64,000 nt of DNA, from positions 1 through 64,000 of the forward strand of contig JAHEAA010000006.1 of the NCBI GenBank assembly GCA_019721035.1, given 5' to 3'. This DNA is from Candidatus Sysuiplasma acidicola. Lineage in GTDB: Archaea; Thermoplasmatota; Thermoplasmata; Sysuiplasmatales; Sysuiplasmataceae. Positions 3,900-47,710 of this stretch are shown piece after piece (position 1 is the first letter of the stretch; each line of letters starts with the position of its first letter). A program made the translations under genes and the position numbers. The notes beneath the pieces were generated by a model. It had not been told where the DNA came from and did not search any database. It saw only the letters and a program-made list of their open reading frames with translations.

Positions 3900-4074
3900 T
3901 GGGGGTTGTGGGATTTGAACCCACATCAGCGGGTGCCTCCTTCTCAGGCAGCTCATCGCTCCAGTATTTCATCATCCTTTCGTCAGTTAAAGGAACAATT
4001 CATTCGCTGCCAGGAGGTCTCAACCATCAAATATTACTGGAGCCCGCAAGGATACCGGACTACCCCAAACCCCC
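3900..4074 (-). tRNA. tRNA-Trp(CCA) with a 102-nt intron
   Basis: Read on the minus strand, exon 1 is 4074-4037 and exon 2 is 3934-3900; the intron is 4036-3935. The acceptor GGGGGTT pairs with AACCCCC, followed by discriminator A. The anticodon stem GCGGG/CCCGC and T stem GTGGG/CCCAC are perfect. The loop reads C32-T-C-C-A-G37, so the anticodon is CCA. The splice sites fit an archaeal bulge-helix-bulge: the central helix is CTCC (32-35) with GGAG near the intron 3' end, and the bulges are AGT and GCA, each cut after the second base. The outer helix is weak. No CCA is encoded. Confidence 0.93.
3953..4005 (-). ncRNA. Candidate box C/D guide RNA inside the tRNA-Trp intron
   Basis: Read 5'-3' on the minus strand: C-like GAATGAA (4005-3999), 12-nt guide, D' CTGA (3986-3983), 7 nt, C' ATGATGA (3975-3969), 12-nt guide, D-like ATGA (3956-3953). 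The second guide contains ACTGGAGC, complementary to GCTCCAGT of the tRNA anticodon loop. The guide base five positions before the D-like box pairs with C34, as the N-plus-five rule requires for Cm34. tRNA-Trp introns that guide their own methylation are known in Euryarchaeota. The D and first C boxes are degenerate, so this is a structural prediction. Confidence 0.65.
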
Positions 4075-4320
4075 TGGGTGAAAGAAATTAAAGGGTTTAC
4101 TGCTTCCTCATCTTCTGGGCTCTCTTTCTCCTCCTCATTCTCTTTTTTCGCCATTTCCAGCGCATCTTGCCCCGTTTCTTCCATACACGTGAACTTCTCT
4201 TCATGCAGTAACCCTAATTTGTAGTGGGTGACGAAACTCTCAATGTTTATAAATTGTTGCATATGCGCTTTGCTGCAAACAACCGGTCGTCTCCAGGTTC
4301 GCTTAAAGCCATGGAATTAT

Positions 4321-47165: not shown

Positions 47166-47293
47166 ATCGACTCATCTGCATCGGATATAACTTTATTGTC
47201 TATTTAGAAAAGTATGATCGTTCTCACCAGAAGCCATGACTGCTGACAGGAGGGCCGCGCATGTTTTTAATAAGGCATAATATACGCTTCCAC

Positions 47294-47389
47294 GGGCCCG
47301 TAGCTTAGTTCGGATATAGCACTGGCCTTCTAAGGTGCTTAACGCCGGAAGGAAGCCAGATGTCCCGGGTTCGAATCCCGGCGGGCCCG
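47294..47389 (+). tRNA. tRNA-Arg(TCT) with a 21-nt intron
   Basis: Exons 47294-47332 and 47354-47389; intron 47333-47353. Acceptor GGGCCCG/CGGGCCC, discriminator G. Anticodon stem CTGGC/GCCAG, loop CTTCTA(A) giving TCT. A clean bulge-helix-bulge forms: central helix CTTC with GAAG, bulges TAA and GAA, outer helix GGTG with CGCC. Confidence 0.93.
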
Positions 47390-47710
47390 TAACTATTTTG
47401 CAACAGAATACTGCCCGGCCCAATGGCAGACAAGCTACTGGGTGACTTCAGGCTGGTGGCCGCCCACCATCCGTTGCGGAAGGGCCCGCATGTCCAGCGA
47501 ATCGTATTCGGACTGACCGTGCAGCAACTCGCAACAGCTTTTACTACTCCACATCGTCGGAATTTCGCAGGAGAGCTATATGGCATGAGTCGGTCAATCA
47601 GGCAAATCGGCCAACTGACCATTCGGTCAGTGCGGAACGCAAGGACGGTTCTATAGGCCGATCGAGATTTCTGCCCTTTGATGCTGCGATTGAGTTAGAC
47701 TGGAATCCGT

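Follow-up and report, generated by a model that had tools for sequence, protein, structure and literature searches.

What does the long intron in the tRNA-Trp(CCA) gene of this archaeon do, and does it serve one target or two? The gene lies in the window, by which we mean the whole stretch of 64,000 nucleotides that was analysed, and its intron has the layout of a complete box C/D RNA (table 1). The intron is very probably a box C/D guide for C34 of pre-tRNA-Trp, and in the Sysuiplasma family the ancestral position-39 guide is gone from the C/D′ half of this intron. The boxes, the covariation of the terminal stem, the covariation between guide and precursor and the lost complementarity to C39 are direct observations; what the altered C/D′ half now does is a separate matter, on which several readings have to be weighed.

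Table 1. The tRNA-Trp(CCA) gene and the elements of its intron, in window coordinates; where two forms of a motif are given, DNA precedes RNA.
Feature	Coordinates	Strand	Remarks
tRNA-Trp(CCA) gene with intron	4074-3900	minus	Ca. Sysuiplasma-family archaeon, order Sysuiplasmatales, class Thermoplasmata
tRNA-Trp(CCA) 5′ exon	4037..4074	minus	C34 = window 4040
tRNA-Trp 3′ exon	3900..3934	minus	first base A38
Intron, 102 nt, complete box C/D RNA	3935..4036	minus	canonical 37/38 position
Terminal (K-turn) stem, 5′ strand GGCAGC	4006..4011	minus	comparison of 7 introns
Box C, AAUGAAU, non-canonical	3998..4004	minus	UGA core 4000-4002
D′ spacer TTGTTCCTTTAA / UUGUUCCUUUAA	3987..3998	minus	candidate guide to 16S 911-919, N+5 = A915; not a C39 guide
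Box D′, CTGA / CUGA	3983..3986	minus	invariant in 7/7 family introns
Box C′, GATGATGA / GAUGAUGA	3969..3976	minus	invariant in 7/7 family introns
D guide, 12 nt, AATACTGGAGCG / AAUACUGGAGCG	3957..3968	minus	N+5 = C34
Box D, ATGA / AUGA ("D-like")	3953..3956	minus	covaries with box C
Terminal stem, 3′ strand GCUGCC	3947..3952	minus	comparison of 7 introns

The exon/intron junction was inferred from the anticodon stem GCGGG/CCCGC together with the CUCC/GGAG central helix of the bulge-helix-bulge motif. The minimum-energy fold of the pre-tRNA lacks the bulge-helix-bulge and pairs the intron CCUCC with GGAGG instead. Both ARAGORN and Rfam missed the gene, presumably owing to its long intron. A further tRNA at 47293-47390 on the plus strand, which ARAGORN left unnamed, looks like a tRNA-Arg(UCU) with a short intron, judged by eye and by comparison with locus L094. 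Directly upstream of the tRNA-Trp gene, at 4097-4204 on the minus strand, there is an open frame of 35 residues that is very rich in Arg and Lys (MKRSSRVWKKRGKMRWKWRKKRMRRRKRAQKMRKQ); it resembles ribosomal protein eL41, a candidate identity that was set aside when a Pfam search gave no match.

Seventy-nine loci, two of them rRNA loci, were put through the intron parse, and 67 introns are counted, seven from the Sysuiplasma family and 60 from outside it. Copies identical over their first 80 bases were dropped before this count, as were a partial second copy from genome G004 at the end of a contig, an arbitrary stretch from G019 and loci in which no intron could be parsed. Exon boundaries were set by hand for four of the 67 (L019, L170, L171 and L175). 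Covariation was counted over distinct combinations (30, 29 and 37 in the respective comparisons). There was no match in 85 of the 200 relatives searched, and the matches to an exact pattern of the intron include Ca. Sysuiplasma superficiale and two bacterial records (Opitutales and Oscillospiraceae), which were taken as chance.

Counted upstream from the D box, the fifth base (N+5) pairs with C34, positions 2-8 of the D guide pair with G31-G37, and positions 9-10 continue into the first two bases of the intron. The bare count of pairing at C34 (67/67) is partly given by construction, because the D guide was located by the motif CTGGA[AG]. The covariation between D guide position 10 and intron base 2, by contrast, does not follow from the way the introns were parsed: the two are paired in all 67 introns through five pair types, and 29 of the 29 distinct combinations pair against a shuffled mean of 21.6/29, with none of 10,000 shuffles as high. 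Position 9 is invariant, and position 11 pairs in 58/67 introns without significant covariation. Since the guide covaries with a base of the intron itself, its predicted target is the unspliced precursor. Fibrillarin (PF01269) is present in all five family genomes searched, that of the window included. An intron that guides modification of C34 in its own tRNA is of an ordinary, known kind, and as a prediction from pairing this function is well supported here.

Compensatory change is seen in the terminal stem and between boxes C and D. In the terminal stem both sides have changed at four of the six pairs, all 42 cells of the seven family introns are paired (100%), and the sister genus keeps the pairing with different bases. 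Across the class, where D boxes are found at the expected place, position 6 of box C pairs with position 1 of box D as U-A, C-G, A-U or G-C, in 25 of 30 distinct combinations as compared with 17.9 after shuffling (P = 0.0001); the count covers 65/67 parsed introns, L174 and L186 not being placeable, and for L156 the script probably took a wrong UGA as box C. At box C position 5 and box D position 2 covariation is not significant (P 0.22). Because position 1 of box D covaries with position 6 of box C, AUGA is compensated in box C, and by this comparison the D box is genuine, not degenerate noise. The first base of box D varies among the tRNA-Trp introns of the class together with the sixth base of box C (AUGA, GUGA, UUGA, UAGA and others; examples are L019, L158, L187, L190, L191, L194 and L202), and guides with a box D other than CUGA would escape motif searches for CUGA. 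A first-pass annotation of the DNA had placed a tRNA-Trp intron at 3935-4036, with box C′, a 12-nt guide and a D-like box in guide-like spacing and N+5 at C34 of the same tRNA. Its coordinates are exact (102 nt, minus strand), the register of the guide is confirmed and joined by covarying pairs with the precursor in 67/67 introns, and all boxes are present along with a K-turn stem that shows compensatory changes. In the homologous introns of the family, boxes D′ and C′ are identical throughout.

The same annotation did not mention tRNA position 39, the usual second target of such introns, and it is here that the Sysuiplasma family departs from its class. Outside the family, position 5 of the D′ guide is a G opposite C39 (N+5 = C39) in 59 of 60 introns, the sole exception being L186 of family f9, in which no D′ guide is recognisable. 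Position 3 of the D′ guide and the final base of the intron change together, with pairs (T-A, C-G, A-T) in 36/37 distinct combinations as compared with 22.5 after shuffling, and 0/10,000 shuffles are as high. By this pairing the D′ guide outside the family can be equated with the known guide for position 39, which corresponds to Um39 in Haloferax and fits C39 in these introns. Within the family, none of the seven introns pairs with C39. The four introns of the genus Ca. Sysuiplasma have the D′ spacer UUGUUCCUUUAA or AUGUUCCUUUAA, and the three of the sister genus have UUGUUCCCAAAA (two introns) or UUGUUUCCAAAA (one). That this family has lost its guide for position 39 is, at the level of sequence comparison, a solid result and a new detail. 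Outside the family, eight of 60 introns have runs of under 5 pairs at C39 (in families f17, f6, f3 and f9); in f6, D′ position 6 is mismatched in five of eight introns (L178, L181, L182, L184 and L185), two of which are also mismatched at position 4, which suggests that the second guide may have decayed independently. Since some outside introns also have decayed D′ guides, loss at D′ may recur and need not mean retargeting. Therefore the two halves of one intron guide appear to be under different constraint: the C34 guide is fixed across Thermoplasmata, whereas the position-39 guide is lost in the Sysuiplasma family and frays elsewhere.

Could the altered spacer have acquired a target in rRNA? 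Counted from the box, its positions 1-9 form Watson-Crick pairs with TTAAAGGAA and the tenth pair is G-U; by alignment to E. coli rrsA this site is 16S 911-919, with N+5 at A915. The site was read in G002 (same genus) and in G005 and G007 (sister genus), because the 16S gene of the window's own genome is cut at a contig start (G000:C16, base 1) just past it; within Ca. Sysuiplasma it is readable only in G002, and 23S was not found in the assembly of the window's genome. The spacer agrees with the prediction rule published for archaeal guides, which asks for an unbroken run of nine or more Watson-Crick pairs with N+5 among them (PMC4644070). Nine pairs are reached by 3.8% of the shuffled guides (n = 2,000; 1.8% have the tenth pair too) and by 38/600 arbitrary 12-mers before CTGA in the window (11/600 with the tenth pair), 8.2% of 1,000 shuffles form as stable a duplex, and three of the 43 distinct D′ spacers from outside the family reach nine 16S pairs, yet fit the tRNA instead. 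The complementarity is thus only marginally above chance. A separate C/D-like gene with a guide to 16S A915 was sought in 389 genomes of the phylum by C box, guide and D box, and none was convincing: besides the window's intron there were six matches in ordinary-looking sequence, none with a visible second C/D pair, as compared with four in a reversed control. As independent A915 guides, the 12 matches outside the family were rejected against 14, by our own count, in the reversed-pattern control.

That the spacer is a functional guide to A915 in Ca. Sysuiplasma, so that one tRNA intron would mark both a tRNA and an rRNA, is in our judgement unlikely. The register is right for N+5, the 16S site is the best rRNA match of the spacer, and no equal Watson-Crick count is found in 80 tRNAs of two family genomes, in SRP RNA or in 5S. 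The core GUUCCUUUAA is moreover identical in all four introns of the genus, two of which are only 41% identical over their first 17 bases. Against this stand the frequency of such matches among control 12-mers (about 4-7%, or 8.2% by energy), the lack of any other such guide in the 389 genomes, and confinement to one genus: the guide is kept in 4/4 introns of Ca. Sysuiplasma and absent from 3/3 in the sister genus, where the 16S site is identical (G005, G007) but UUGUUCCCAAAA and UUGUUUCCAAAA do not fit it. In addition, the 16S pairing competes with an intramolecular one, in which AUUGUUCC of the D′ spacer is matched to GGAGCGAU, a stretch that spans D guide and D box. On this pairing rests a different reading, whereby the first half of the spacer would be a cis element that extends the K-turn stem and keeps the C34 guide locked until the pre-tRNA displaces it. 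The eight pairs keep the register of the K-turn and are formed in 98.2% of 55 cells over the seven introns, and the pairing is part of the minimum-energy fold; shuffling gives a P of about 0.01 for each genus's main spacer (0.0086 and 0.0112), and of 0.022 and 0.043 for the two variants. It also accounts for UUGUUCC, which is common to both genera while positions 3-5 are not shared, and which a 16S target does not explain. We nevertheless hold such a lock to be rather doubtful: there is zero covariation (although the D guide side leaves little room for change), a fold of this kind would have to compete with binding of the target, and positions 1-4 of the spacer are left unexplained. In the published model of the RNP neither guide is paired before its target is bound, which likewise counts against it.

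The remaining reading supposes an orphan guide, in which the function at C39 is lost and the spacer drifts without a target, and we see in it a real possibility, if short of a probable one. The spacers differ between the two sister genera, the D′ guide has decayed elsewhere in the class (the five f6 introns and L186 mentioned above), and tRNA-targeting C/D RNAs with a target-less second guide are reported from Pyrobaculum (PMC7994747). Drift alone fits less well with a spacer that, in each genus, has diverged less than the intron's free part, and with the retention of boxes C and D′. The first-pass annotation had proposed a nine-base complementarity to the 915 region and, with it, a dual tRNA/rRNA guide. 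The complementarity is real, and the C34 half of the proposal is well supported; the 16S half, weak against chance and limited to one genus, is only possible, so that dual guiding as predicted from these pairings is possible, not established. More specific still, and in our view improbable, is the proposal that in Ca. Sysuiplasma the second guide was recaptured from tRNA position 39 to 16S A915, a residue next to the central pseudoknot's 3′ strand, and that every excised intron so couples wobble methylation of tRNA-Trp to maturation of the small subunit.

Other candidate targets (tRNAs, SRP RNA, 5S and 12-mers of the whole genome) were weaker or inconsistent. A shared 23S target GGGAACAA near position 1057 pairs with positions 5-12 of the sister-genus spacer (8 pairs, shuffle P 0.044) and was not adopted; in Ca. 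Sysuiplasma its N+5 would fall on a U-G wobble, and at positions 1-4 pairing is always absent. For the same sister-genus spacer, tRNA-Pro(UGG) offers 9 pairs including one G-U and, by our own count, the middle anticodon base as target, the tRNA having been read in the other genus than the spacer; this target was likewise set aside. Full 12-base complements of the spacers in seven family genomes gave 15 matches, of which six are the intron loci and the other nine include no orthologous pair. A U3-like chaperone at the central pseudoknot was dropped because U3 is reported, in the passages of PMC5354517 on the 90S structure, not to bind the 3′ side of the pseudoknot.

Returning to the C34 guide with a lost position-39 half, the following course of events can be proposed. 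The intron of pre-tRNA-Trp would be bound by L7Ae, Nop5 and fibrillarin; its C′/D half would pair with an unspliced pre-tRNA-Trp, either its own or another molecule, over the anticodon loop and intron bases 1-2, and direct 2′-O-methylation of C34. The C/D′ half, having lost the guide for position 39, would now hold a genus-specific spacer that acts as a 16S A915 guide or an internal lock, or is an orphan. From RNP assembly and methylation to splicing and circularisation, these steps are what we infer.

How does this intron compare with systems already described? In Haloferax, as in many other archaea, the tRNA-Trp intron is described as a C/D guide whose targets are C34 and U39 (PMC2584109, PMC7994747, PMC11408192, PMC4090602), and papers citing d'Orval 2001, Bortolin 2003 and Singh 2004 describe such a guide for Haloferax volcanii, Pyrococcus (sR50) and other Euryarchaeota; in Haloferax the unspliced precursor is reported as the target (PMC2584109). 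The C34 half therefore only adds one more lineage to a known system. A tRNA-Trp intron that targets rRNA, or one that lacks the position-39 guide, did not turn up in the open-licence papers searched, which is not proof of absence. If the new spacer does have an rRNA target, this would be a rare tRNA intron with guides for tRNA and rRNA alike, and a natural instance of a retargeted guide. A C/D RNA inside a tRNA intron is also known from the tRNA-Met of Nanoarchaeum equitans, but there the tRNA is another one, the intron has 66 nt and the passages that describe it name no rRNA target (PMC3491384). With the rRNA-targeting C/D sRNAs of archaea the D′ spacer has the nine-pair rule in common (PMC4644070); it differs from them in its location in a tRNA intron, in being shared with a tRNA guide, in its restriction to one genus and in a chance rate of 4-7%. 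The "A915" of N. equitans sR17 is not E. coli 915, because it lies in helix 28 in that paper's numbering (507 = E. coli 530; PMC4644070). The closest likeness is to the guide of Haloferax and Pyrococcus, with which the Sysuiplasma intron shares the gene, the insertion at 37/38, a length of about 100 nt, boxes C/D and C′/D′, N+5 at C34 and, as deduced here from sequence, pairing with the unspliced precursor. It differs in its second guide, which misfits position 39 and has a lineage-specific D′ spacer, and in its boxes C (AAUGAAU) and D (AUGA), which are non-canonical and mutually compensated.
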